Positions 17,836 to 34,993 of a stretch of DNA of 37,898 bases are shown here, piece after piece. Origin of the DNA: Bacteroides sp. (GTDB taxonomy: Bacteria > Bacteroidota > Bacteroidia > Bacteroidales > Muribaculaceae); assembly GCA_014802045.1 (NCBI GenBank), contig JAAVDA010000017.1, positions 95,449 to 133,346 of the forward strand, in the 5' to 3' direction. Position numbers and translations under genes: made by a program. The notes beneath the pieces were generated by a model. That model made no database searches. It saw only the letters and a list, made by a program, of their open reading frames with translations, and was not told the origin of the DNA. How positions within the stretch are numbered: the first letter of the stretch is position 1; every line of letters begins with the position of its first letter.

Positions 17836-19272
17836 GTGGAATCTAAATCTCTAAGACATAAAACCCTTAAGGGTACTATTTGGAGTAGTATAGAACGATT
17901 CTCTGTACAAGGGCTATCATTCCTAATAATGATATTTATGGCAAGAGTTCTTACTCCTGCTGATTATGGCCTAATTGGAGAATTATCAGTGTTTATTGCA
18001 ATTTCCATGTCACTCGTAGACAGTGGATTTTCTCAGGCTCTCATTAGAAAACAAAACCGTACAGAAGCTGACAATTGCACAGTTTTCTATTTTAATCTTG
18101 TAATCAGCGTCAGTCTCTACTGGATATTGTTTATATCCGCCCCAGTTATCGCCAGATTTTACAACGAACCTTTACTTACTTCCCTTACAAGAGTTATTTC
18201 ATCGGTCTTAATAATTAACTCCTTTGGTGTAGTCCAAAGAGCATTATTAATTAGTAAGCTCGACTTCAAAACACAAGCGAAAGCTTCTTTCTCCGGAATC
18301 TTACTTGGTGGCATTGTTGGTATTATTATGACTTATTCCGGATTTGGAGTGTGGTCTCTTGTTTGGTATCAAATTATTTCTGCCACAATAACATTATTTG
18401 TACTTTGGTTCATTTCGCCTTGGAGACCCCAGATTTTATATTCATGGCAATCTTTCAGAGAACTCTTTGGATTTGGATCTAAAATGGCAATTAGTGGGAT
18501 TATAAATACACTCTATCTCAATATTTATCTTATTGTAATTGGTAAGGTGTTTCGACCAGCTGATTTAGGTTATTATACTCGCGCTCATCAATTTGCTCAG
18601 CTACCATCTCAAAATCTCAATGATATCGTTCAAAGAGTCTCATATCCTGTACTCTGCACAATCTCCGATGATGACGAAAGATTAAGAAATGTCTATCGTC
18701 GCTTCCTAAGACTGTCTGCATTTATAGTTTTTCCCCTCATGATTGGCCTGGCTGTTTTAGCACATCCGCTCATTATTATTATCCTTAAGGAACAATGGGC
18801 GTTTGCGGCGACTCTCTTATCTATTCTTTGCCTATCTATGATGTGGTATCCCATACATGCGATAAATCTGAACCTATTACAAGTAAAAGGACGCTCAGAT
18901 TTGTTCCTACGACTTGAGATTATCAAAAAAATTGTAGGGGCAATTATTTTGGTCATCACTCTCCCTATCGGACTGATTGCTATGTGTATTGGAAGCATAT
19001 TCAGTAGTCTTATTTGCTTAGCCATAAACACCTATTACACCGGCAAACTAATACAAGTAGGTTTCTTCACACAGATGAGAGACCTACTCCCGACTATCAT
19101 TTATTCACTTTCTATGGGAGTGATAATCTTGGGTGCAACGTATTTTCTACAAGCAGACTGGCTTAAGCTCGTCGTCGGAACTCTCATAGGAATAGCTTAC
19201 TACTTCTCCATAACAAAATTCACGGATTCCAATGATTTAAAAGAATTATATAGCTTTATAAAAACAAGATAA
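17836..19272 (+). CDS. wzx: Wzx-type lipopolysaccharide/O-unit flippase (MOP superfamily)
   Basis: The 478-residue polytopic membrane protein has about 12-14 hydrophobic segments and the start typical of the polysaccharide-transporter (WzxC/RfbX-like) family: KTLKGTIWSSIERFSVQGL, then MARVLTPADYGLIG, then SGFSQALIRK. It should move undecaprenyl-linked repeat units across the inner membrane. The start is GTG 17836; the first ATG is inside the first membrane segment, so GTG fits better. It is the first AT-rich gene of the locus and is followed by the aminotransferase gene after 9 bases. Confidence 0.9.
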   Translation: MESKSLRHKTLKGTIWSSIERFSVQGLSFLIMIFMARVLTPADYGLIGELSVFIAISMSLVDSGFSQALIRKQNRTEADNCTVFYFNLVISVSLYWILFISAPVIARFYNEPLLTSLTRVISSVLIINSFGVVQRALLISKLDFKTQAKASFSGILLGGIVGIIMTYSGFGVWSLVWYQIISATITLFVLWFISPWRPQILYSWQSFRELFGFGSKMAISGIINTLYLNIYLIVIGKVFRPADLGYYTRAHQFAQLPSQNLNDIVQRVSYPVLCTISDDDERLRNVYRRFLRLSAFIVFPLMIGLAVLAHPLIIIILKEQWAFAATLLSILCLSMMWYPIHAINLNLLQVKGRSDLFLRLEIIKKIVGAIILVITLPIGLIAMCIGSIFSSLICLAINTYYTGKLIQVGFFTQMRDLLPTIIYSLSMGVIILGATYFLQADWLKLVVGTLIGIAYYFSITKFTDSNDLKELYSFIKTR

Positions 19273-19281
19273 ATATCAGTC

Positions 19282-20403
19282 ATGAATATACCTGATTCAA
19301 AAATAACAGTCACATCTCCCCTCCTGCCCGATTTAGAGGAGTTTCATGCAATGCTAAAGGATATATGGGATTCCAAGTGGATTACCAATAACGGAAGCTA
19401 CCATCAGCAATTAGAAAAATCCTTAGCTGAATATTTGAAAGTTCCATATATAAGTTTATTTACCAACGGCACTCTCCCATTAATCACAGCATTGCAAGCT
19501 CTGAGAGTCACCGGTGAAGTAATAACAACACCCTATAGTTTTGTTGCAACAACCCACTCCCTATGGTGGAATGGCATAAAACCAGTTTTTGTTGACATAG
19601 ATCCAAGTACAGGAAATTTAGACCCCAATAAAATTGAAGCTGCCATTACTCCTAAAACTACGGCCATAATGCCGGTGCATGTCTATGGACAGCCTTGTGA
19701 TACCATAGCTATCCAATCAATCGCAGATAAGTATGGATTAAAAGTAATCTATGATGCCGCCCATGCATTTGGAGTAGAAGTCAATGGACAATCCATCTTA
19801 AACGCCGGTGACTTGTCTACTCTGTCTTTCCATGCTACCAAAGTCTATAACACGATTGAAGGTGGAGCTATGGTGATGCAGGATGAACAGACAAAAAGAC
19901 GCATTGATTATCTGAAAAATTTCGGATTTGCCGGAGAGACCACCGTCGTAGCACCTGGAATTAACTCAAAAATGGATGAGGTCAGAGCTGTTTATGGTCT
20001 CCTTAACCTTCGCCAAGTTGATGAGGCCATAGAAGCCCGACATAGGACGACAGACAAATACCGGGAGGCACTGAGGAATATTGAAGGCATAACATTCTTT
20101 GAAGACTCTCCCAATATACGTCATAACTACTCCTATTTCCCTATTTTTATTGATGCAGAAAAATATGGAAAAACCAGAGACCAAGTATACGAAGAATTAA
20201 AATCACACAATATCTTAGGTCGCAGATATTTCTATCCACTTATAAGCGAATTCTCCACATATCGAGGTCTTCCATCATCTTCACGCGAAAATCTTCCTAA
20301 TGCCTACAGGATGGCCGAGTCTGTCCTCTGCCTCCCGATGCACCACGCACTAACAGATTCTGAAATAAGTCATATCACAAATTATTTTAACAATGGAAAC
20401 TAA
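19282..20403 (+). CDS. DegT/DnrJ/EryC1/StrS sugar-nucleotide aminotransferase
   Basis: This 373-residue PLP enzyme has the family marks: FTNGTLPLITAL (phosphate contact), TTPYSFVATTHS, the PLP-nitrogen aspartate in IYDAAHAFG (D158) and the Schiff-base lysine in SFHATKVYNTIEGG (K187). It transfers an amino group, normally from glutamate, to a keto sugar nucleotide. The HATKVYNTIEGG block resembles VioA/FdtB-type dTDP-keto-6-deoxyhexose transaminases, so a 3- or 4-amino-dideoxy sugar is a plausible product; this is inference. No dTDP-sugar synthesis genes (rmlA/rmlB) are in the window. Its last 11 bases overlap the ATP-grasp gene that follows. Confidence 0.88.
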   Translation: MNIPDSKITVTSPLLPDLEEFHAMLKDIWDSKWITNNGSYHQQLEKSLAEYLKVPYISLFTNGTLPLITALQALRVTGEVITTPYSFVATTHSLWWNGIKPVFVDIDPSTGNLDPNKIEAAITPKTTAIMPVHVYGQPCDTIAIQSIADKYGLKVIYDAAHAFGVEVNGQSILNAGDLSTLSFHATKVYNTIEGGAMVMQDEQTKRRIDYLKNFGFAGETTVVAPGINSKMDEVRAVYGLLNLRQVDEAIEARHRTTDKYREALRNIEGITFFEDSPNIRHNYSYFPIFIDAEKYGKTRDQVYEELKSHNILGRRYFYPLISEFSTYRGLPSSSRENLPNAYRMAESVLCLPMHHALTDSEISHITNYFNNGN

Positions 20404-21607
20404 GCGCAAAATATTATTGCTAGGCGGATCTGCTGCTCAATTAGTGGCAATCCGTAAAGCTAAAGAATTAGGATACTATACTATCGTTTGTGATTATCTC
20501 ATGGATAATCCCGGGCAACATATAGCTGATAGATATTATAATGTCAGTACAACAGATATAACTAAGATTCTTAAGATTGCATCTGAAGAAAATATCGATG
20601 GTATTGTAGCATATAGCTCTGATCCTGCAGCTCCTACCGCAGCATATGTCGCACAGAAACTTAATTTACCAGGACTTGATTATGAAAAGGTTCGTCACTT
20701 CTGTGAGAAACAACTTTTCAGAAAATTTCTGAAAAACAATGGTTTTAATGTTCCGAGGTCATTAGAAATCAAAATTCCACTCCAGATAGAATCTCTTAAT
20801 AGTAATGCACTTAAGTATCCGGTAATTATTAAGCCGACAGACTCATCTGGAAGTAAAGGTGTTTCTGTACTACAAGATACAACTAATCTAAAAAAAGCGT
20901 TAGAAGAGGCTGCAAAATTTTCTAGAAACAAAACTCTAATTATAGAAGAATTTATAGAAAGAGATCACCCCCATGTAATAGAGGCCGAAATTTTTACAAT
21001 TAATGGTAAGGTCGTTTCATGGGGTTTAATAAATAGTATTCGAGATTGTGAATCAAATCCTCTACTTCCGGCTGGCTATAGCTATCCATTGGAATTGTCC
21101 AATGAAAGAATTAAATTAGTGAAATCAGAGATTTCACGGCTTATTCATGCCTTTGGCAACCCATCAGGAGCATTTAATATAGAAATGATTATTGATAAGA
21201 ATAATCAACTTTATTTTTTAGATGCTGGTCCTCGCAATGGTGGCAATATGTTACCCGAATTCATCTCAATGATATCAGGAAAAGATTTAGTAGAAGCCAC
21301 TATAAGAAATGCAATGGGAGAAATTGGTGGTCTTGACGTTGAATTAGATAGTAAAAGTGGAGAGTACTGGGGCTTAGCTGTCCTACACACTAATCAACAT
21401 GGTAAATTTAAGACAGTCAATTATAATCCCATCGCAAAAAAAGCACTGGTAAGAGAAGAAATCCAAAAATCCCCGGGAGAAGAGGTCACACCTTTTATAA
21501 AGTGTAATGATCTTATAGGTCTGAGTTTCTTCCATTTCAGAGAACAACTAGAGATGGAGAACGTAATGGGAAACATGAATAATTCTATAATTATTAGTAC
21601 TACATGA
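20393..21607 (+). CDS. ATP-grasp ligase, first copy
   Basis: The 404-residue protein has a pre-ATP-grasp Rossmann-like domain (KILLLGGSAAQLVAIRKAKE), then the ATP-grasp fold: YPVIIKPTDSSGSKGVSVL (lysine 147, glycine loop 151-157), IIEEFIERD, and the metal-binding LDAGPRNGGN (D277, R281, N282). Members form carboxylate-amine or thiol bonds through an acyl-phosphate. The carboxylate and acceptor are not visible here. Its place between two aminotransferase genes suggests acylating an amino sugar with an amino acid or other acid, but this is inference. The second ATP-grasp gene (22553) shares the order of motifs and the AKELG...DYL...DSP/DNP...AD...N(V/I)S pattern, so the two look like distant paralogues. 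It ends in an ATGA overlap with the next gene. Confidence 0.85.
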   Translation: METKRKILLLGGSAAQLVAIRKAKELGYYTIVCDYLMDNPGQHIADRYYNVSTTDITKILKIASEENIDGIVAYSSDPAAPTAAYVAQKLNLPGLDYEKVRHFCEKQLFRKFLKNNGFNVPRSLEIKIPLQIESLNSNALKYPVIIKPTDSSGSKGVSVLQDTTNLKKALEEAAKFSRNKTLIIEEFIERDHPHVIEAEIFTINGKVVSWGLINSIRDCESNPLLPAGYSYPLELSNERIKLVKSEISRLIHAFGNPSGAFNIEMIIDKNNQLYFLDAGPRNGGNMLPEFISMISGKDLVEATIRNAMGEIGGLDVELDSKSGEYWGLAVLHTNQHGKFKTVNYNPIAKKALVREEIQKSPGEEVTPFIKCNDLIGLSFFHFREQLEMENVMGNMNNSIIISTT

Positions 21608-22533
21608 AACCCATAGGAGGTTACTTTGAGATAGAATGTGGAAAAATACCACCATATTATACAGATGGTATTTATCTAAATTCTTGTAGGAACGGAATAA
21701 AATATCTTATTCGTACACTAGGTATTTCAGAAATTCATGTCCCATACTACACATGTGACGTAGTCTTTCAAGCCATCTTACAAGAAGGGTGTAAAATGAA
21801 GAAATATCACCTTGATGAAAATCTTATGCCCGCCCGTGAATTTAAGACATGTGACTTCATTATATACAATAATTATTTTGGAGTTTCAGGGGAAAAGATA
21901 AAAGAACTAGCGAATTTATATCCCAATCTAATTGTAGATAATGCCCAATCATTTTATTCAACGCCTAATTGCAGAGCAACAATATATAGTCCTCGAAAAT
22001 TTTTTGGGCTACCTGACGGAGGAATACTTCGAGGAAGAGACATACCTATAGTAAATTTGCCCATAGGTACCTCATATAAATTATGTAGTCACCTCCTCAA
22101 ACGTATTGATTTAGGCCCACAAGCAGCCTATAATGATTTTGTTTTAGATGATAAGGCATTAGAAGAATATCCACTAGAACAAATGTCAATACTTACAAGA
22201 GCTTTAATGGGAAATATTGATTATGAGACAATAAAATCTCAACGCATAAAGAATTTCGAGTTCTTAGAAGACTCATTACATACAATTTTTCCCATCTCTT
22301 TCTCTAACGATGATGTCCCGATGGTGTATCCTTACATTACTAATAATAGCCACTTGCGTGATAAACTTATTTCAAAGAATATCTTTGTGGCAACATATTG
22401 GCCAAATGTCTTAAAAAGTTGCAATCGGAATTCTGCTGAATATCATTTCGCGAAAAATATTATTCCTCTTCCTATCGATCAACGTTATGGAGAAGAAGAC
22501 ATGAAAATAATCTGTAACTTAATTAATAAATAA
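21604..22533 (+). CDS. Short PLP-dependent aminotransferase-like protein
   Basis: The 309-residue protein resembles a compact fold-type I aminotransferase. It has a SCRNGIKYLI segment, VPYYTCDVV, an aspartate in IVDNAQSFYS that would hold the PLP nitrogen, and a candidate Schiff-base lysine in YSPRKFFGLPDGGIL. It is shorter than the 373-residue DegT/StrS enzyme upstream and diverges strongly, so it is not a recent duplicate. Its substrate is unknown; it may make the amine or amino acid used by the neighbouring ATP-grasp ligases (inference). It is coupled upstream by ATGA, with a 19-base gap to the next ATP-grasp gene. I am fairly confident of the fold, less so of activity. Confidence 0.65.
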   Translation: MKPIGGYFEIECGKIPPYYTDGIYLNSCRNGIKYLIRTLGISEIHVPYYTCDVVFQAILQEGCKMKKYHLDENLMPAREFKTCDFIIYNNYFGVSGEKIKELANLYPNLIVDNAQSFYSTPNCRATIYSPRKFFGLPDGGILRGRDIPIVNLPIGTSYKLCSHLLKRIDLGPQAAYNDFVLDDKALEEYPLEQMSILTRALMGNIDYETIKSQRIKNFEFLEDSLHTIFPISFSNDDVPMVYPYITNNSHLRDKLISKNIFVATYWPNVLKSCNRNSAEYHFAKNIIPLPIDQRYGEEDMKIICNLINK

Positions 22534-22552
22534 TATACATTTAACTTTAACT

Positions 22553-23803
22553 ATGAAAAGACTGCTTATACTAGGAGGAACAAATATATCACTTCAAATT
22601 CTTCATGCGGCTAAAGAACTAGGACTAGAGGTTTATGTTGCCGATTATCTATCAGATTCCCCTTGTAAAGTATTTGCTGATAAGAGTTTTAACATCAGTG
22701 CTACGGACGTGGATGCTATTTGTAAACTGATAAGCACAGAGCATATCGACGGAGTTTTAATGGGGTATGCAGATGTTCTATTAAAACCATATATAGAGAT
22801 TTGCTCTAGGGTCGGCCTCCCATGTTACGCTAATAAAACAGCCATTGAAATCACATCTGACAAGAGAAAGTTTAAAGACTACTGTAGGAGATTTAACATC
22901 CCTGTCATCCCTGAATACTCTTTTGAGTCTATCATAAGAGGGGAGAAACCGTTTCCTATCATCATAAAGCCTGTAGATAATAGTGGTGCCCGAGGTATTT
23001 ATATTTGTAATAACATTCCTGAGTTTAAGCAGTTTTATCTTGAAGCGTTGAATTATTCACCAAGTAAGACTATTATAATAGAACCGCTTCTTAATGAAAA
23101 GGAAGCTACTATATTTTATTTCATCAAACGCGGAATTCCATATCTATTAGGAGTTGGAGATCGGTTAATGTATGAACAAGATTCCAACATAATTAAACTC
23201 CCGGTTGGATACATATTCCCTTCAAAATCAATAGATTCCTTTATTAAGAACCAAGACTATAAATTTAGACAACTTTTTAGCTCACTCTCCATGAATGATG
23301 GAATGGTATTCATTCAAACATTTCTAAAAAACGACCAATACATTGTTTATGAGATGGGATACCGTCTTACAGGATCAATTGAGCATCATCTTATAGATAG
23401 ACAGTATAGCTTTAATCATCTTAAGGAAATGATTCACTTCGCTGTTGGTGAAGATACTTCTGATGAGACTCTCACTAAGATAGATCCGAAAAAATGTTGT
23501 ATGGCCAATATATCCTTACTATTACGTGAAGGAATAATCCAACGTTACGAAGGACTTGAAAATTTAAAGTCAATGCCTGAAGTCGTGCATTATCATGTTT
23601 CTTATGATATCGGCACAGTTATTGACCAAAATATTATAGGGAAATTAGCTCAGGTTGGTATAAGAATACTATTAGTAGCACAAAATAAAATAGAGCTACT
23701 ACAGAAAATGGATGAGATTAAAAACACCCTCTCCGTAATCGATACGACTGGTAAAGACATGATCATTAAAGATTACTCATATCAAATTATTGCTGAATCA
23801 TGA
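22553..23803 (+). CDS. ATP-grasp ligase, second copy
   Basis: The 416-residue protein begins MKRLLILGGTNISLQIL with the pre-ATP-grasp domain. It then shows FPIIIKPVDNSGARGIYI (lysine 139, loop 142-149), IIIEPLLNEKEATIF and YEMGYRLTGSIEHH (E267, R271) for metal and nucleotide binding. A C-terminal domain of about 90 residues follows. It differs from the first copy in the metal site (an E-x-G-x-R arrangement instead of D-A-G-P-R-N), which hints at a different substrate. It probably forms an amide or ester bond on a polysaccharide precursor. It overlaps the next gene by ATGA. Confidence 0.82.
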   Translation: MKRLLILGGTNISLQILHAAKELGLEVYVADYLSDSPCKVFADKSFNISATDVDAICKLISTEHIDGVLMGYADVLLKPYIEICSRVGLPCYANKTAIEITSDKRKFKDYCRRFNIPVIPEYSFESIIRGEKPFPIIIKPVDNSGARGIYICNNIPEFKQFYLEALNYSPSKTIIIEPLLNEKEATIFYFIKRGIPYLLGVGDRLMYEQDSNIIKLPVGYIFPSKSIDSFIKNQDYKFRQLFSSLSMNDGMVFIQTFLKNDQYIVYEMGYRLTGSIEHHLIDRQYSFNHLKEMIHFAVGEDTSDETLTKIDPKKCCMANISLLLREGIIQRYEGLENLKSMPEVVHYHVSYDIGTVIDQNIIGKLAQVGIRILLVAQNKIELLQKMDEIKNTLSVIDTTGKDMIIKDYSYQIIAES

Positions 23804-24699
23804 ATCTACTAATTACTGGTGCTTCTGGTTTAGTCGCCACAGAGTTAATTTTTTCATTGTTAAAGAATAAGGACTATCACCTGACCTTATTATCCAGAAA
23901 TACAGATGAAATTTTTGATAGATATGGGCATTATCATAACCAAATTGAGTCGATTACTATTGAGGAAGCGTATCAGAGGATTCCATATCCTAAATATGAC
24001 TGCGTAATCCATACCGCATTTGCTCGTTCTCCAAACGGTCACGATATCGCAGCTTCTCTATCTTATCTCTCGAACTTATGTACATGGTTAAAAGAGGGAA
24101 TAGTGAGAAAATTCATAAATATTTCTTCCCAAAGTGTATATGGAAGTGATTATAAAGCCGGAATAAAAGAGTCTGAAACTTGCTCTCCCGACTATCTATA
24201 CGCAATGGGGAAATATGCTAGTGAAATTATTGTAACCGGATTTTTCACCGATACATCTACAGAAGTAATAAATCTACGACTAGCATCAGTGTGTGAAAAT
24301 GCACGTTTCATGAAAATCTTTGTAGGGAAAGCTCTCAATGGTGAAAAAATCGAATTGACAGCTCCGCAACAAACAGTTTCATTCATTGACGTACGAGATG
24401 TTTCGACCGCCATATTACAGATTATTGCTCAAAAGCACAGTGTAAGTGGAACATATAATCTTGGAACTGGACAGTGGTACACAATAAAGCATGTTACAGA
24501 ACGAATTAAAGAACTCGGAGAGCAGGAATACAATATAAAACCACTTCTTATTAAAATCACGAATAATCATAATAGCTCTTCTATTGGAATGTCAAACGAG
24601 TTATTCACAAAGACGTTCCATTGGACATCTAATTATACATTGGATGACATGATTCGCTCATTATACGAAATGTTAACAAATGCAAATGGGGGGGGGTAA
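23800..24699 (+). CDS. NAD(P)-dependent SDR epimerase/dehydratase ending in a nine-G tract
   Basis: The extended SDR (299 residues) has GASGLVATEL (7-16) for the dinucleotide, a catalytic serine in INISSQSVYG, and YAMGK (Y134, K138). It is likely a sugar-nucleotide epimerase, dehydratase or reductase; the exact reaction is unknown. The last codons are AAT GGG GGG GGG TAA, with nine consecutive G at 24688-24696. A one-base insertion there would extend the protein by 13 residues to a TGA at 24735-24737 that overlaps the next ATG by ATGA. A one-base deletion would add about seven residues and end at a TAA. It is translationally coupled to the ATP-grasp gene upstream. Confidence 0.85.
   Translation: MNLLITGASGLVATELIFSLLKNKDYHLTLLSRNTDEIFDRYGHYHNQIESITIEEAYQRIPYPKYDCVIHTAFARSPNGHDIAASLSYLSNLCTWLKEGIVRKFINISSQSVYGSDYKAGIKESETCSPDYLYAMGKYASEIIVTGFFTDTSTEVINLRLASVCENARFMKIFVGKALNGEKIELTAPQQTVSFIDVRDVSTAILQIIAQKHSVSGTYNLGTGQWYTIKHVTERIKELGEQEYNIKPLLIKITNNHNSSSIGMSNELFTKTFHWTSNYTLDDMIRSLYEMLTNANGGG
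24688..24696 (+). repeat. Nine-base G homopolymer
   Basis: A run of nine G in an otherwise AT-rich region, at the extreme 3' end of the SDR coding sequence. Such tracts can slip during replication. Two seven-G tracts lie inside other genes of the locus (29912-29918 and 36508-36514). Confidence 0.95.
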
Positions 24700-24733: not shown

Positions 24734-25486
24734 ATGACTAGAATACTGCAAGTTATTAAATATGGATGGTACCATGCTGGAATGCGCCGTTCTGACGTGA
24801 GAGGACGACTTAAAGTCTTCTTAGATATTATAGTTTGCTTTTATAAGTATCGAATGTGGTCAAACCAATATATTTCAGAAGCGTTTGATACACTCACAAA
24901 TGAACAACGTGAAATTATAGGGAGTAAATATCTTAAAGCTGGAATAAAAAGAGATAAATGGCAGCGCGATTTTAGAGCCAACAGAAAATTTCTGTTAAAG
25001 TATTCAGGGAAAAAATACGAATTGGCACGATTGCGTAATAAGAGACAGAAAGCATATTCTACAAGGTTTAATATAGGAAAAGACTTAATGGTGGAATATG
25101 ATGTTAATATTTCAAGACAGCATTACTTGGAAGGGAGTATTAGTATTGGAAATAATGTATTGCTGGCTAAACACGTTTTCATAGACTATTCCGGCGATGT
25201 AAGAATTGGAGATAATGTCCAATTAACAAATGGAGTAATCATAGAGACACATTATCACCCATTCCACTCTGATTATAAAGAGTCAAGAAATGATGTTATC
25301 CCAACATCACTTGTTATAGACGATGGTGCCGTTATTGGATCAAGAGCTATAATTATGCCAACTGTACGCCGCATAGGAAAACATGCACGTGTTGGAGCTG
25401 GAGCCGTAGTTACTCACGATGTGCCGGATTATGCCGTAGTAGTCGGGGTTCCGGCAAAAATTATACGGTATCAAAATCCAACCTAA
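24734..25486 (+). CDS. Hexapeptide-repeat (left-handed beta-helix) acyltransferase
   Basis: The 250-residue protein has a mostly helical, basic N-terminal domain (about 1-105) and then hexapeptide repeats ([IV]-G-x-x-x-x) from about 115 to 245: SISIGNNVLL, VRIGDNVQLTNGVII, GAVIGSRAIIMPTVRRIGKHARVGAGAVV and a terminal DVPDYAVVVGVPAKIIRY. The end is typical of WbbJ/maltose O-acetyltransferase-like sugar O- or N-acyltransferases using acetyl-CoA. A histidine-rich stretch THYHPFH may hold the catalytic histidine. It probably acetylates a sugar of the repeat unit. It follows the SDR after 34 bases. Confidence 0.85.
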   Translation: MTRILQVIKYGWYHAGMRRSDVRGRLKVFLDIIVCFYKYRMWSNQYISEAFDTLTNEQREIIGSKYLKAGIKRDKWQRDFRANRKFLLKYSGKKYELARLRNKRQKAYSTRFNIGKDLMVEYDVNISRQHYLEGSISIGNNVLLAKHVFIDYSGDVRIGDNVQLTNGVIIETHYHPFHSDYKESRNDVIPTSLVIDDGAVIGSRAIIMPTVRRIGKHARVGAGAVVTHDVPDYAVVVGVPAKIIRYQNPT

Positions 25487-25497
25487 GTAATAAGTCC

Positions 25498-26544
25498 ATG
25501 CAACAATTTCCAGAAAATATATCACTTCGTATATCTGAAATTAAATCTCAATGTTCCCTGATTAAGCCATTGGTTACTATCAGTTGCGGAACATTCAATC
25601 AGAAGAACTATATACGTGAGACACTTGATGGTTTTGTAATGCAGATAACAACGTTTCCATTTGTAGTAATAGTTCATGATGATGCATCTACAGATGGAAC
25701 AGCTAGCATAATTAAGGAATATGCCGATAAATATCCGAATCTAATAATCCCTATTTTTGAAAGTGAAAATCAATATTCAAAAGGAGAAGGAAAGCTTTCT
25801 AATATTATGGGAGAGATACGCAAGGCAACTGGTGCGGAATACTATGCATTCTGTGAAGGAGATGATTATTGGACAAACCCATTAAAGCTTCAAAAACAAT
25901 ACGATATCTTAGAACTACATCAAGATTTATCTATAGCTCTTAATCGAGTTGGACTAATTAATAAAAATGGAGAACAAATTGATGGTTGTATACCTCCTAA
26001 GGATTCATTAAAAGAAGGTATTGTTACACTGGCAACCTTAATGGATGAGGAATTTATGAAGGGAAACTGGACCTTTCATACAAGCAGTTTTTTCATTCGT
26101 AAAACTGTATTAGAAAAATACAGTGAAATTCGAGAGAGTGTATTTAACCATTTCCCTTACGGTGACATGCCTTTACTTTTGAATTGTCTTTTACTCGGTA
26201 ACGGCTATTTCTTCACAGAAGAGATGGGATATTATAGAGTTCTCTCAGGAGGTTATAATTCCTCTCTTGTGGCTTCCCCTCAGAAAGCTATCGCAGAGTT
26301 TCGGCAGGTAGCAACTGCATACAGAGACTTTGACACTTATACTTTAGGAAAATATCATAAACAAATAGAAAGAGCGGCCCGAAGATACGAATGGAGAGCC
26401 ATGAAGTTGTTATATCCTAAAAAATTACTGTGGAGATTTCAGGCTAAATATTTCCCATTTCTAAGCTTCAAAGAAATCATAAGATTCAAATATCCCACTT
26501 TTTATACATTAGTTAAATCGTTATTAAAACATAGTGAAAAATAA
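25498..26544 (+). CDS. Glycosyltransferase family 2
   Basis: The 348-residue protein has a GT-A fold with LVTISCGTFNQKNYIRETLD at about 25-44, the nucleotide-binding VIVHDDASTDGT (57-68) and the DxD-like CEGDDYW (119-125). The C-terminal region has no strong membrane helix. It should add one sugar to the lipid-linked repeat unit at the cytoplasmic face; donor and acceptor are unknown. It overlaps the start of the following lipoprotein gene by 11 bases. Confidence 0.9.
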   Translation: MQQFPENISLRISEIKSQCSLIKPLVTISCGTFNQKNYIRETLDGFVMQITTFPFVVIVHDDASTDGTASIIKEYADKYPNLIIPIFESENQYSKGEGKLSNIMGEIRKATGAEYYAFCEGDDYWTNPLKLQKQYDILELHQDLSIALNRVGLINKNGEQIDGCIPPKDSLKEGIVTLATLMDEEFMKGNWTFHTSSFFIRKTVLEKYSEIRESVFNHFPYGDMPLLLNCLLLGNGYFFTEEMGYYRVLSGGYNSSLVASPQKAIAEFRQVATAYRDFDTYTLGKYHKQIERAARRYEWRAMKLLYPKKLLWRFQAKYFPFLSFKEIIRFKYPTFYTLVKSLLKHSEK

Positions 26545-27568
26545 GATTATATACATATTTCATATCTTCATCATTGTTTTGCCAATCTCTTTATATGGAT
26601 GTTCTAATACTCCTGATATTTGGGATGAATCAGATCCGGAATGGATCGAAGGTGTACCAGCTCATACTGATGGAGGATATTTATTTGCATTTATAACAAG
26701 CAGTGAGTATTATCGGCTTCATTATGCAGTTTCACGGGATGCCTATAATTGGCAGACCTTGAACAATGGTAAAATTATTAATGAAACTTATAAAGGACAT
26801 CCCGATATCTGTCAAGGACCAGACGGAGTGTATAGAATGATTGGAGTTATGCCTCTTGCTCTATGGGAGTCTTTGGATTTGATTGATTGGACCATAACAC
26901 CTTTGGATACGGACATATTTGATCAGAGCAGTAAATTAGGTTACTTTGCCGTCCCAGACTATGGCGCGCCCAAAATTTTTTACGATGCAATTAGTGAACA
27001 ATATATCATAACATGGCATGCATGCCGTACCCCTAATAATAATGATTGGGCATCAATGAAAACACTATATATTCTCACTTCGGATTTTAAACACTTTACC
27101 GAAGCTGCCTTTTTACATAACTTCTCAGGTAAAGATGCCGACATATGCACCATCGACAATATTATCCGTTATATTGACGGATGCTACTATTCAATCTTGA
27201 AGGATGAGAGAGAACCGATATTTGCTCCGGATACTGGCAAGACGATAAGAATTTCAAAATCACAGAATCTCACAGGTCCATACAATGAACTCTCAGCTCC
27301 GATAACACCAGTAGGAGATTTGCTGGAGGCGCCAATATTAATAGAACTACCAGAACAGTCTGGGTATGCGCTATATGCGGAAAGTTTTGCCGGTCCCCGT
27401 TTTGGATATCATATGTTTGTTGCTGATAATATCGAAGGACATTTTATTGAACACCAGTTCTGTCCACCAAATACAAGAGATGGTTCAAACAGACCTCTTG
27501 CACGACATGGATGCATAGTAAGAATTCACGAAGATACTTATATGGGTTTAATCAGAAAGTATCAATGA
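26534..27568 (+). CDS. GH43-like five-bladed beta-propeller lipoprotein
   Basis: The 344-residue product starts at GTG 26534 with a lipoprotein signal peptide, ending in the lipobox LYGC (cysteine 23) and followed by an acidic stretch (SNTPDIWDESDPEW) similar to Bacteroidetes surface-export signals. The body reads as beta-propeller glycosidase-like sequence: LHYAVSRDAYNW, KGHPDICQGPDGVYRMIG, APKIFYDAISEQYIITWHA, RISKSQNLTGPYN, EAPILIELPEQSGYALYAES. Such blades are found in GH43/GH117-related enzymes. Whether the catalytic acids are complete cannot be decided by eye. A secreted sugar-binding or sugar-cleaving protein inside a biosynthesis locus is unusual; it may trim, modify or anchor the polymer. 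It couples to glf by ATGA. Confidence 0.65.
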   Translation: MKNKIIYIFHIFIIVLPISLYGCSNTPDIWDESDPEWIEGVPAHTDGGYLFAFITSSEYYRLHYAVSRDAYNWQTLNNGKIINETYKGHPDICQGPDGVYRMIGVMPLALWESLDLIDWTITPLDTDIFDQSSKLGYFAVPDYGAPKIFYDAISEQYIITWHACRTPNNNDWASMKTLYILTSDFKHFTEAAFLHNFSGKDADICTIDNIIRYIDGCYYSILKDEREPIFAPDTGKTIRISKSQNLTGPYNELSAPITPVGDLLEAPILIELPEQSGYALYAESFAGPRFGYHMFVADNIEGHFIEHQFCPPNTRDGSNRPLARHGCIVRIHEDTYMGLIRKYQ

Positions 27569-28704
27569 CACAAGTAGCAAAATATGACTATCTAATAGTC
27601 GGTGGCGGACTTTACGGAGCTACTTTTGCACACCTTGCTGCAAAGCGAGGGAAACGATGCCTGGTTATCGACAAACGTCCACACGCAGGGGGCAATATAT
27701 ACTGCGAAGAGATTGAGGGGATAAACGTGCACAAATACGGTGCGCACATCTTCCACACCTCCGATGAAAAGGTCTGGAAATTCGTCAACTCAATAGTCCC
27801 CTTCAACCGCTATACAAACTCTCCCGTTGCATCGGCTCCTGACGGTAGGTTTTACAACCTTCCGTTCAACATGAACACCTTCTATCAGATGTGGGGCTGC
27901 AAGACTCCCCAAGAGGCTCAGACTAAACTCGACGAGCAGCGCCTGGAGGCTATCGATAGAATGCGGACCGAGGGAATCAATGAGCCCCGCAATCTTGAAG
28001 AACAGGCCCTCACTCTCATCGGCACAGACATCTACAATCTCCTCATCAAAGGATACACCGAGAAGCAGTGGGGACGTCCGTGCACCGAACTGCCGGCATT
28101 CATAATCCGTCGTCTGCCCGTCCGGCTCACTTTCGACAACAACTACTTCAACGACTCCTACCAAGGTATTCCCATCGGAGGATATAACCGACTTATCGAC
28201 GGACTCCTTGAAGGAATTGAAATACGACTCAACACGGACTTCTTCGACGACCGCCGCCACTGGGAATCTATCGCCGACCACATAGTCTTTACCGGCAAAA
28301 TAGATCAGTTCTACGACTACCGCTTCGGACAGCTCGAATATCGCAACGTGCGCTTCGAAACAGAGGTGCTGCCAACTCCCAACTATCAAGGCAACGCTGT
28401 GGTCAACTACACCGCCGCCACCGTCCCCTACACCCGCATTATCGAACACAAACACTTCGAGGTCTTCGGCGACGAAGTATACCGCAATCCGCACACAGTG
28501 ATTTCTCGCGAATACTCCGCCGAATGGCGCCCAGGCATGGAACCGTTCTACCCCGTAAACGACTCCCGCAACCAAGCCCTCTACGCTCGCTACCGCGAGC
28601 TTGCCGATGCCGAGACCCGCGTTACATTCGGTGGCCGCCTCGCCGAATACCGCTACTACGACATGGCCCCCATAATCTCCCAAGTTCTAAACCATTTTAA
28701 TTAA
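27565..28704 (+). CDS. glf: UDP-galactopyranose mutase
   Basis: The flavoprotein has FAD-binding YLIVGGGLYGATFA (9-22), RPHAGGNIYCEE, the conserved HIFHT segment, and the signature YTEKQWGRPCTELP and GIPIGGYNRLIDGL. With the start at ATG 27565 it has 379 residues, the normal size; an in-frame ATG at 27511 lies inside the previous gene and its extra 18 residues are not family-like. It converts UDP-galactopyranose to UDP-galactofuranose, so the polymer should contain Galf. The gene is clearly GC-rich with codon use like the housekeeping region, unlike its AT-rich neighbours, so it has a separate history. Confidence 0.95.
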   Translation: MTQVAKYDYLIVGGGLYGATFAHLAAKRGKRCLVIDKRPHAGGNIYCEEIEGINVHKYGAHIFHTSDEKVWKFVNSIVPFNRYTNSPVASAPDGRFYNLPFNMNTFYQMWGCKTPQEAQTKLDEQRLEAIDRMRTEGINEPRNLEEQALTLIGTDIYNLLIKGYTEKQWGRPCTELPAFIIRRLPVRLTFDNNYFNDSYQGIPIGGYNRLIDGLLEGIEIRLNTDFFDDRRHWESIADHIVFTGKIDQFYDYRFGQLEYRNVRFETEVLPTPNYQGNAVVNYTAATVPYTRIIEHKHFEVFGDEVYRNPHTVISREYSAEWRPGMEPFYPVNDSRNQALYARYRELADAETRVTFGGRLAEYRYYDMAPIISQVLNHFN

Positions 28705-29561: not shown

Positions 29562-30491
29562 ATGTCGAATATCCTATTTATTGGAGGAGCCGGATTTATT
29601 GGTTCCAGTATAATAAATCACTTATCACAATATAATATGAGAATCTTTATTTTAGATCCTCATGCTTCAGAGAAAAATAACAAATTTGGCCGTAATATCC
29701 AACTACTAAAAGGAAGCCTATCAGAAATCGATTTAATCAAAGATATTATCATCTCAAATAATATCTCAAAAATCATTCATCTAGCATCTTGTATGATTCC
29801 TTCGAGTGATTTTAATGCGTATATTTCAGAATATGAGAATATTATTCTACCGACAATCCGATTAATTAAATTATGCAGTGATTATAAGATTCAATTCATT
29901 TACTTCTCCTCGGGGGGGACTGTATATGGTGAAAATCCCTCGTTGACATTAATAGAGGAAATATCAGTAAAAGCTCCTATCTCATACTATGGCCTATCTA
30001 AGGATATGATTGAAAGCTTCATCCTATTCGAAAATAGAGCCAATCGATTGAAATATCTAATCTTACGTCCATCAAACCCCTATGGTCCAGGACAAAATAT
30101 TCATGGTCAGCAAGGATTGATAGCTGTAACTATCGGAAAACTGCTTGAGAATCAGGAAATCACAATTTGGGGAGACGGGTCATCAATAAGAGATTATATA
30201 TATATTGATGACCTCGCTATTATTGTAACTCAATTAATTGTAACTGACGTAAGTAATCTAACCATAAATATTGGTTCAGGCAAAGGATATACCGTCAATC
30301 AAATATTATCTATTATCAGAGAAATTATTCCTATCAAAATGGATGTGAAATATCTTCCTGACCGTAAGAATGATGTGTCAAATGTTCTACTTGACACATC
30401 ATTATTAAATAATCTTGTGAGAATTAAATTCACTTCTTTAGAAGAGGGTATCCTACGTTTTTATAACTACGAGTTGGAAAATCATGAGTAA
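29562..30491 (+). CDS. NAD-dependent nucleotide-sugar epimerase (extended SDR)
   Basis: The 309-residue SDR has GGAGFIGSSI (8-17), catalytic serine context FSSGGTVYG (115-123) and YGLSK (Y143, K147), plus RPSNPYGPGQ and DYIYIDDLA typical of UDP-glucose 4-epimerase-like enzymes. A UDP-Glc/UDP-Gal (or GlcNAc/GalNAc) 4-epimerase activity would supply the Glf substrate, which suits the neighbourhood, but other epimerisations are possible. A seven-G tract (29912-29918) lies within the SSGGT motif. It overlaps the next gene by 8 bases. Confidence 0.85.
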   Translation: MSNILFIGGAGFIGSSIINHLSQYNMRIFILDPHASEKNNKFGRNIQLLKGSLSEIDLIKDIIISNNISKIIHLASCMIPSSDFNAYISEYENIILPTIRLIKLCSDYKIQFIYFSSGGTVYGENPSLTLIEEISVKAPISYYGLSKDMIESFILFENRANRLKYLILRPSNPYGPGQNIHGQQGLIAVTIGKLLENQEITIWGDGSSIRDYIYIDDLAIIVTQLIVTDVSNLTINIGSGKGYTVNQILSIIREIIPIKMDVKYLPDRKNDVSNVLLDTSLLNNLVRIKFTSLEEGILRFYNYELENHE

Positions 30492-31413
30492 AAGACAACC
30501 AATACTTTCATTATGCATACCAACAAATGGAGCCAAGGAATGGGTTCTCCCAGTTATTGAAAGTATATATACTCAGAGAGTAGATGATAATTTATTTGAA
30601 ATTATTATCTCTGACAATGGCTGCAACACAGAGCTTGAAAGCTCATTGTCATCATTCAACCATAACAATTTATTCTACTATAAATCAACTGATGAAGGAT
30701 TTACTAATCAAATTAATTCCATAAAAAAGGGTACCGGACTCTATAGAAAAATGATTAATCATAGGAGTTGTTTAATTCCCGGAGCACTCCAACAAATGAT
30801 TAATCTAATCTTAAAATATAATGACACACGCCCCGTCATTTATTTCTCGGATAATAAAATTAAAACTAATGGGGAGAATATCGTGGAATGTAATTCATAT
30901 AACGAACTTGCATACAATTTACATTATTGGATTTCATGGAGTGCAGGAGTTGGATTATGGGATACCGATTGTGACAAACTGGATAAATTAAATCCAGATA
31001 AATTATTCCCACACATATCACTTATTTTTGATATCAGGCCAGAATCAGAATGTATCATATGGAATGGACGATATCAGAGGATGCTCAATGATGATGGTAA
31101 GGGTGGATACAACGTATTTAACACATTTTCTGTCATCTTTCTAAATATTTTATCTGACTATGTTAAATCTGGCAAAATATCCAAAGTCTCATATTCCAAA
31201 ATTAAAAAAAAATTATTTGGTTTTCTATGTGAATTATATCTTCGAGAAGTTATCCTCCCCACCAAACGCACATTTGAACTCTCTAACATTAGACAATCGA
31301 TTAGTACTCATTATTCAACGAAAGGATATTTTAAGATGCTCATTTTCGCATACTTTAATGGTATAAAATCCATTCATAAAAAACTCAAGCATATTTGTCA
31401 TATTTATAGGTAA
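30484..31413 (+). CDS. Glycosyltransferase family 2 (divergent)
   Basis: The 309-residue protein has a GT-A start (LSLCIPTNGAKEWVLPVIES) and the IIISDNGCNTE nucleotide-binding turn (41-50). Around residue 140 it has NLHYWISWSAGVGLWDTD. This fits a family of divergent GT2 enzymes of O-antigen loci (abequosyltransferase-like). Donor and acceptor are unknown. It is followed by a 251-base stretch without a gene. Confidence 0.8.
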   Translation: MSKRQPILSLCIPTNGAKEWVLPVIESIYTQRVDDNLFEIIISDNGCNTELESSLSSFNHNNLFYYKSTDEGFTNQINSIKKGTGLYRKMINHRSCLIPGALQQMINLILKYNDTRPVIYFSDNKIKTNGENIVECNSYNELAYNLHYWISWSAGVGLWDTDCDKLDKLNPDKLFPHISLIFDIRPESECIIWNGRYQRMLNDDGKGGYNVFNTFSVIFLNILSDYVKSGKISKVSYSKIKKKLFGFLCELYLREVILPTKRTFELSNIRQSISTHYSTKGYFKMLIFAYFNGIKSIHKKLKHICHIYR

Positions 31414-33796: not shown

Positions 33797-34993
33797 ATGA
33801 CCTCATCTTCTCGTAAATATATTCCTTTCCACCTATATCTATTTCTTTTTGGCGCAATTTACTATTGGTTATTCCCTGTTATAATTCTTGATTATAATCT
33901 TATTGAAGGGATGCCGGGAGTTAGTTTACTTGATAAATATAATTATAAGCCATTCAAATCTGAATATATCCAAATTGTATCTCTGCTAATTATTTCATAT
34001 ACAATTGGCTGTATATTACCACTAAAATTTAAAAGGTTACCAACATCCCGAAAGAGTCCTAAAATAATCGTTTCTCCCCGGGACTTACTTCTATTTTCTC
34101 TTCCTGTTTTCTTGTTTGGACAATATACTATTTTCAAAGCTCGGAATATCCTCTTTAAAGGATATTCCATGGACTATGATATTGAGATTCTGGGAGCTAT
34201 TGCTACAGCAAACAGTATATTCCTCGTTCTCCTTCTTTTCCTTTTCTCTAACAACTATAAGAATTCTTTTTGGTCGAATACTGCAAAAAAATATTCTATA
34301 TTTGGATTAATTGAGTTTTCAATTATATTATTAGGCCTAGGATCTAGAATGTATGTTATGATCCCTGCTACAGCTCTATTTATTTATTATTTACAGAATC
34401 ATAGAATAACTCGTAAATTGATATTTGTCTCTCTCTCTATCGTACTTTTATTTCTATGGATTGGTATTTGGCGAATATCTAATTCCGGAATAAGCTGGGA
34501 ATTATTATTTTATATAGGAAGCGCAGAACCATTACTAACCTGGATTAGTGCTGTCTCCTTTTTTTCTTATAACCAGATTAGCTGGATTTCTATACCACAG
34601 AATTTCCTTAGTTCTTTTATTAATTTTATTCCAACATTCATCTTCCCATCAAAAGGCAACTATATTATACCTTTTAACGGAATTTATGATTCTCCATTGG
34701 GTGCTACGAATCTAATAACATCTTTGCTAGGGGATTTTGGTTTAATTGGAAGTTGTCTCATTCTCATGTTACTTGGGTTTATATTAACACTAATTCAATA
34801 CAACTGGACTAATACTTTTGGTCGAATCTACTACTACTGCTTATGTGGTATAATTCCTTTCCAACTTTTTAGAGACAATTTACCCATTATCAATAAAGTC
34901 GCCATATTTAACATGCTGATAGTCCCGATTCTTACCTACTCTCTAATTCATTTTATTTCAAGAAAATATAACAATGGGGAAAATAGAACTTGA
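33797..34993 (+). CDS. Wzy-like repeat-unit polymerase (membrane protein)
   Basis: The 398-residue protein is almost entirely hydrophobic, with about 10-12 predicted membrane segments and a larger loop around residues 260-300. This is the topology of oligosaccharide repeat-unit polymerases, which have little sequence conservation. No other intact polymerase is present in the locus, so by elimination this should be Wzy, joining flipped repeat units at the periplasmic face. It follows the broken polymerase after 6 bases and overlaps the GT4 gene by 20 bases. Confidence 0.72.
   Translation: MTSSSRKYIPFHLYLFLFGAIYYWLFPVIILDYNLIEGMPGVSLLDKYNYKPFKSEYIQIVSLLIISYTIGCILPLKFKRLPTSRKSPKIIVSPRDLLLFSLPVFLFGQYTIFKARNILFKGYSMDYDIEILGAIATANSIFLVLLLFLFSNNYKNSFWSNTAKKYSIFGLIEFSIILLGLGSRMYVMIPATALFIYYLQNHRITRKLIFVSLSIVLLFLWIGIWRISNSGISWELLFYIGSAEPLLTWISAVSFFSYNQISWISIPQNFLSSFINFIPTFIFPSKGNYIIPFNGIYDSPLGATNLITSLLGDFGLIGSCLILMLLGFILTLIQYNWTNTFGRIYYYCLCGIIPFQLFRDNLPIINKVAIFNMLIVPILTYSLIHFISRKYNNGENRT

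Follow-up and report, generated by a model that had tools for sequence, protein, structure and literature searches.

An alternating aminotransferase and ATP-grasp gene module in a Muribaculaceae polysaccharide locus, with a predicted role in building an amino-acyl side chain on a sugar nucleotide

The DNA described here is a 37,898-nt stretch (the window) of contig JAAVDA010000017.1 from Bacteroides sp., a member of the Muribaculaceae. A low-GC polysaccharide island that starts at about 17.8 kb, at a gene for a Wzx flippase, contains a run of five genes, all on the forward strand (positions 19282-24699), which code in order for a sugar aminotransferase (AT1), an ATP-grasp ligase (AG1), a short protein of pyridoxal phosphate (PLP) type (AT2), a second ATP-grasp ligase (AG2) and a short-chain dehydrogenase/reductase (SDR) (Table 1). 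The run was recognized in an initial annotation, whose account of the five genes, their alternating order and their overlaps is exact to the base: all five open reading frames (ORFs) are open, the recomputed spacings are -11, -4, +19 and -4, and the two aminotransferase-like proteins do differ in size (AT1, 373 aa; AT2, 309 aa). The module is real, conserved and modular, and an uncharacterized PLP-type family lies at the center of what is a variant of a known pathway type. By analogy with E. coli O-antigen loci, it seems probable that the module equips one sugar nucleotide with an amide-linked side chain resembling an amino acid, ahead of repeat-unit assembly.

AT1 belongs to the DegT/DnrJ/EryC1 family (PF01041, 327 bits) and shares 57-60% identity with three annotated E. 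coli VioA proteins and 53% with the enzyme of the O123-type locus discussed below. Its PLP-type residues D158 and K187 are invariant across 17 aligned rows, and in an NCBIfam search its score against the related DesI model is 300, short of the cut-off of 650. AT1 is predicted from these resemblances to make 4-amino-4,6-dideoxy-D-glucose (Qui4N) from dTDP-4-keto-6-deoxyglucose. RmlB, the source of this presumed substrate, is encoded in the same genome.

Table 1. Coordinates and predicted roles of the five-gene run and adjoining genes in the window
Feature	Position	Strand	Product or predicted role	Family or other basis
AT1	19282..20403	+	VioA-type sugar aminotransferase, predicted dTDP-4-amino-4,6-dideoxy-D-glucose (Qui4N) synthase	PF01041
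AG1	20393..21607	+	ATP-grasp ligase, predicted acylation of Qui4N 4-amine	Own clade; position held elsewhere by WbqC
AT2	21604..22533	+	Unnamed short DegT-like PLP-type family, predicted to set second amine on acyl group	D112/K132; profile matches
AG2	22553..23803	+	Another ATP-grasp ligase, of a different clade; predicted acylation of second amine	
SDR	23800..24699	+	Extended short-chain dehydrogenase/reductase, travels with AG2	PF01370
ACT	24734..25486	+	Hexapeptide-repeat acyltransferase, possible terminal acetylation	PF00132; 61% identical gene in same place in L035
Wzx flippase	17836..19272	+	Directly upstream of AT1	PF13440; adjoins AT1 in several related loci too

AG1 passes the cut-offs of two ATP-grasp Pfam families, PF02786 and PF13535, and AG2 falls just below both (PF13535, 26.8 versus 27.0; PF02786, 19.2 versus 19.8). 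The two form separate clades on a tree (SH-aLRT 98 for AG1 and 100 for AG2). Conserved positions in AG1 (12 rows) are K147, an invariant E264, D or E at 277 and R281; in AG2 (six rows) K139, Q255 and R271 are invariant and position 267 is E or D. The residues D277, R281 and N282 of AG1 and E267 and R271 of AG2 were correctly picked out in the initial annotation, but the metal-site contrast drawn between D277 and E267 is rejected, these being equivalent acids that differ conservatively (AG1 itself has D in two rows and E in ten). Where the two proteins do differ is the acidic position before this one (the first metal position), with E264 in 12 of 12 AG1 rows and Q255 in 6 of 6 AG2 rows. Neither protein scores above cut-off as one of the purine or biotin enzymes named as a counter-case in the initial annotation: no NCBIfam cut-off is reached by AG1 among its best 25 of 64 families (at most 83.8 bits, to PRK02186 with a cut-off of 625; purT, 49 versus 502) or by AG2 among its best 25 of 28 (at most 32.7 versus 218). 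The top PDB match of both is 4dim, which is known by annotation only, and the nearest characterized relatives are L-amino acid ligases, namely BL00235 (3vot) and 4wd3 for both proteins and BacD for AG1. The amino-acyl-substituted amino sugar first suggested remains the likeliest product.

For AT2 alone, no family match is seen in Pfam (E≤0.001) or NCBIfam (E≤0.01), and no significant one in the PDB, where a single match appears at E 0.34. However, a profile of 23 aligned rows, in which D112 and K132 are invariant and ordered as in PLP fold-type I enzymes, matches the DegT structures QdtB (E 1.2e-5) and ColD (E about 1e-5), and a profile-profile comparison (hhalign) with AT1 gives E 3e-11. Because only one of the 23 members, and not that of the window, reaches PF01041 at E≤0.01, AT2 is, judged by its profile, a remote DegT relative overlooked by these libraries. 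With distant ones and the window's own included, relatives occur in 24 of the 393 genomes searched from the order (E≤0.001). AT2 of the window is 38% identical to a protein of E. coli O123/O186-type loci that is annotated as hypothetical and has counterparts of 96-100% DNA identity in 10 of 5426 genomes; used as a query at E≤1e-15 against the phylum of locus L027, the E. coli protein finds 2 of 398 genomes, one of them L027's own. AT2 is split or short at L049 (4174-4826) and L045 (9752-10201), perhaps as decaying copies or through assembly faults.

Gene order was scanned in 73 stretches (a main set of 65 and a further 8); G and L numbers label the genomes and the stretches or loci compared. 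The four-gene alternation, which the initial annotation proposed to seek elsewhere, is present in full in the cultured Bacteroides stercorirosoris (L170), with identities to the window of 76% (AT1), 40% (AG1), 43% (AT2) and 28% (AG2, which falls inside the AG2 clade). AG1 is found at 19 places in 18 of the 393 genomes (E≤1e-50), and a VioA-type AT1 lies immediately upstream at 12 of these (counted by hand) and one or two genes away or antisense-adjacent at four more, the exceptions being in G245, G074 and G293. The recurrence in L170 and these counts mark the arrangement as more than coincidence. AT1 and AG1 are strongly linked, and the module belongs to a surface polysaccharide, as originally envisaged. 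AT2 directly follows AG1 at 6 of the 19 (G000, G166, G108 with a distant AT2, G230 with a short one, G315 and G357). For AG2, seven of the 393 genomes match at E≤1e-30, and setting aside AG1-type proteins (G387, G194 and G245) leaves four.

The doubled pairing of ligases and aminotransferases recurs, but it can be broken up. L050 has AT1-AG1-AT2 followed by an ATP-grasp protein of a third clade. L035 has AT2-AG2-SDR-ACT as in the window (AG2 55%, SDR 46% and ACT 61% identical), with a WbqC-family protein (PF08889) in place of AG1 between AT1 and AT2. AT2-AG2-SDR is kept as a block in the window, L028 and L035. L099 has AT1-AG1-AG2-SDR with AT2 absent, and AG2-SDR behaves as a portable pair; SDR follows AG2 in all six AG2 loci of the 65-stretch scan, and is not recognized after AG2 in L170. 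Among 28 AT2 loci (≥190 bits), 18 have AT1 together with AG1 or WbqC, usually with AG1 or WbqC between AT1 and AT2, and 16 have a recognized acylating gene (ATP-grasp, GNAT or FemAB-like) no more than three genes after AT2 (a hand count). In B. finegoldii (L165) an AT1-AG1-ATP-grasp-SDR-glycosyltransferase cassette lies on a 114 kb plasmid record.

AG1 and WbqC are unrelated proteins that seem to stand in for each other at one position. First, 54 of the 73 stretches contain one or the other (AG1 at ≥200 bits, WbqC at ≥240 bits), and there are 20 with AG1, 34 with WbqC and none with both; these proportions are not a census, because the stretches were gathered by AT2, AG2, WbqC and AG1 searches and include only part of the WbqC places. 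The WbqC limit drops L042, L124, L126, L131, L132 and L134, none of which carries AG1, and weaker third-clade ATP-grasp proteins do adjoin WbqC in L125 and L133. Second, both keep the same company: AT2 lies within 5 kb at 8 AG1 loci and 15 WbqC loci, AG2-SDR occurs in two AG1 loci (the window and L099) and three WbqC loci (L028, L035 and L098), and the O121-type GNAT and SDR335 accompany both. Third, the 21 AT2 loci with AT1 comprise 8 with AG1, 11 with WbqC, two with neither and none with both (one-sided Fisher 2.2e-4, which is optimistic because the test treats related loci as independent, L038-L040 being near relatives and L058 having been found via WbqC). Finally, the AG1/WbqC label switches at least six times on the AT1 tree, in which many branches are weak. 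The resemblance is limited to position and partners, as AG1 has no match to PF08889. A WbqC profile finds nothing credible in the PDB (best E 0.13), and a Proteus WbqC gene used as query for the E. coli WbqC gives no match. A link of AT2 to terminal GNAT types was considered and is not relied on: the O121-type GNAT is less frequent where AT2 is present (2 of 23 versus 11 of 31, p 0.03) and the O123-type GNAT is not significantly linked to AT2 (p 0.15).

E. coli loci with a wzx of the O123/O186 family (one also with the wzy) have the order rmlB-rmlA-wzx-AT1-WbqC-AT2-GNAT-MaoC. The O123 repeat includes Qui4N bearing N-[(S)-3-hydroxybutyryl]-D-alanyl, as given in a review table that attributes the structure to Perepelov 2010 (PMC10609480), and the O123 and O186 clusters are within a set reported to be 98-99.9% identical (PMC4732683). 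An O121-type locus has AT1-WbqC-GNAT, with no AT2 and no relative of AG1 or AG2 in the 14.7 kb read, which ends inside the locus. Its structure is presumably the same as that of Shigella dysenteriae D7. For the latter, the review table lists acetyl-glycyl-Qui4N (PMC10609480). Five other E. coli vioA loci, the O116, O39 and O49 families among them, have neither WbqC nor AT2. The O49 locus carries MaoC, and we take its Qui4N to bear 3-hydroxybutanoyl directly. Subtraction across these few structures would assign WbqC to the first amino-acyl group, AT2 to D-alanyl, and GNAT with MaoC to the terminal acyl group.

A pathway for the window is obtained by putting AG1 for WbqC and AG2-SDR for GNAT-MaoC in the O123-type scheme. 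We infer each of its catalytic steps and substrates from what is observed, namely gene order, protein families, active-site residues, the AG1/WbqC exchange and the E. coli gene parallels. AT1 would convert dTDP-4-keto-6-deoxyglucose to dTDP-Qui4N, and AG1 would use ATP to join a small acid to the Qui4N 4-amine, a job done elsewhere by WbqC. AT2, as a PLP enzyme, would leave an amine on the attached acyl group, the likeliest route being transamination of a tethered 2-oxo acyl group to a (D-)amino acyl group. AG2 would then couple a second acid to the new amine, SDR would modify the AG2 product, and ACT may acetylate it. The most specific version would be amino-acid synthesis on a sugar nucleotide: a 2-oxo acid is coupled to dTDP-Qui4N by AG1 and, while tethered there, transaminated by AT2 to give a D-amino acyl group, after which AG2 lengthens the chain. 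We put this version forward only tentatively, as less likely than not.

The initial annotation instead envisaged two separate amine-bearing precursors: AT1 and AG1 would make one acylated amino sugar and AT2 and AG2 a second, with both being polymerized. Two distinct aminotransferase-like families, two ATP-grasp clades, the retention of AT2-AG2-SDR as a unit in three loci, and the other sugar genes of the island (two epimerase-family genes and glf) would all suit such an arrangement. It seems unlikely nonetheless, as the comparison with E. coli O123 favors a single sugar with a single growing chain: the tabulated repeat has one Qui4N and one chain, and on our reading the O123-type gene list leaves no other residue needing AT2. 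The co-occurrence of AT1 with AG1 or WbqC in 18 of the 28 AT2 loci, usually with AG1 or WbqC between the two aminotransferase genes, also argues against it. That AT2 makes a free amino acid, to be attached by AG1 or WbqC (with AG1 thus acting after AT2), would fit both the ATP-grasp relatives, since L-amino acid ligases take free amino acids, and the O121-type locus, which has WbqC and no AT2 though glycine is presumably attached. But the O123-type locus keeps AT2 although E. coli makes its own D-alanine, and AT2 is DegT-like, a family acting mostly on nucleotide sugars, and we regard this route as rather improbable.

A further alternative is that AT2 is not an aminotransferase but a PLP epimerase, turning a tethered L-amino acyl group into its D form. 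AT2 does track the D-alanyl group in O123, and it is missing from the locus whose presumed substituent is glycine, an amino acid without a D form. A single known structure is, however, a thin basis for the correlation, and the 20 PDB matches of the AT2 profile (E≤1) are named as aminotransferases, dehydratases and one synthase, with no racemase among them; we therefore consider an epimerase very doubtful.

Several observations weigh against stepwise growth of one side chain on Qui4N, with AT2 between two ligases, which nonetheless remains our preferred reading. L098 and L099 have no AT2, and AG2 directly follows WbqC (L098) or AG1 (L099). AG2-SDR is thus present without AT2, and therefore AG2 does not need AT2; for the same reason the first ligase is probably able to deliver an amine itself, as glycine would. 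No recognized acylating gene follows AT2 in 12 of the 28 loci (L031, L034, L038-L045, L060 and L062), of which L034 and L041 are at contig ends, and L030 and L041 carry AT1 and AT2 with no AG1 or WbqC in view. The glutamine at the first metal position of AG2 may indicate altered chemistry, and the relatedness of loci that flatters the Fisher test belongs here too. On the weakly supported WbqC tree, labels for the presence or absence of AT2 switch at least nine times, so that AT2 appears as an optional insert rather than a fixed partner and a strict substrate switch is not favored. Lastly, within 1.5 kb of the best 30 WbqC places a VioA-type AT1 is present at 13 (none at 17) and AT2 at five (none at 25); with so many places lacking AT1 or AT2, WbqC has other uses, some with adenylation-like genes.

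WbqC-family (PF08889) matches occur in 379 of the 393 genomes. They fall into two sets, one strong (E below about 1e-48) and one weaker (E around 1e-30), and the weaker one looks like a common gene. At L105, L106, L107 and L129, an amino-acid-adenylation-like protein comes after AT1-WbqC and may offer a third means of charging the acyl group; a small carrier-like protein and an SDR lie in between at the G294 place (L107, also L084). At L120 (G114), the gene after AT1-WbqC codes for a protein of about 376 aa, by eye similar to an aminopeptidase, and GNAT genes come next.

Distant AT2 relatives (28%, 26% and 23% identical to AT2 of the window) lie upstream of a FemAB-like protein and NeuB in all three nonulosonate loci examined, L046, L047 and L048 respectively. 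L048 also has LegB, LegC and NeuC above cut-off, and its FemAB-like protein passes PF13480 and not PF02388 (FemAB). Legionaminic acid in E. coli O161 bears D-alanyl according to the review table (PMC10609480). These observations are a weak hint that AT2 also serves amino-acyl groups on sugars other than Qui4N.

Elsewhere in the island, glf (UDP-galactopyranose mutase, 27511-28704) has a GC content of 0.513, and 0.61 at third codon positions, against a GC content of 0.31-0.41 in the other island genes, and is by composition a gene of different origin. Three island ORFs have no Pfam match (26534-27568, 344 aa; 30484-31413, 309 aa; and 33797-34993, 398 aa), the last of which may be the Wzy polymerase.

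In the one open library searched, we know of no paper on this module, no characterization of WbqC is evident from titles and the opening lines of abstracts, and no paper linking ATP-grasp enzymes with sugar nucleotides was found; the only one found on ATP-grasp and O-antigens concerns Pantoea ananatis. The analysis offers roles for families without an assigned role in the sources searched, namely AT2, WbqC and the AG1/AG2 ligases. Under the most specific version given above, a peptide-like chain would be lengthened without a template on a sugar carrier, the ligases (AG1, WbqC and perhaps FemAB-like proteins) would be exchangeable, and an unnamed PLP family would set the stereochemistry. The proposed roles would account for the transfer to Qui4N of the D-alanyl and glycyl groups that mark some O-antigens, and would make such groups predictable from the capsule loci of gut bacteria.

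Each of the known systems resembles the module in part. The ATP-grasp L-amino acid ligases (BL00235, BacD and 4wd3), the nearest characterized PDB relatives of AG1 and, BacD apart, of AG2, join free amino acids, whereas the predicted acceptor of the window ligases is an amine carried by a sugar nucleotide. In legionaminic acid loci (LegB-LegC-NeuB) the distant AT2 lies among LegC, GNAT and NeuB genes, but the sugar is a different one and a FemAB-like protein takes the place of AG1 or WbqC. In the VioA-VioB pathway, for which O39, O49 and O116 are named (PMC4732683), the aminotransferase is of the same VioA type as AT1 of the window, but there is one acyltransferase step and no second amine gene. 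The E. coli O121/S. dysenteriae 7 locus shares the succession of AT1, an aminoacyl gene and an N-acylating gene, and differs in having no AT2 and no AG1 or AG2 relative in the 14.7 kb read. The E. coli O123/O186 locus shares the order Wzx-AT1-[amide-forming gene]-AT2 (AT1 53% and AT2 38% identical), with WbqC in place of the window's AG1, and GNAT and MaoC in place of its AG2-SDR.

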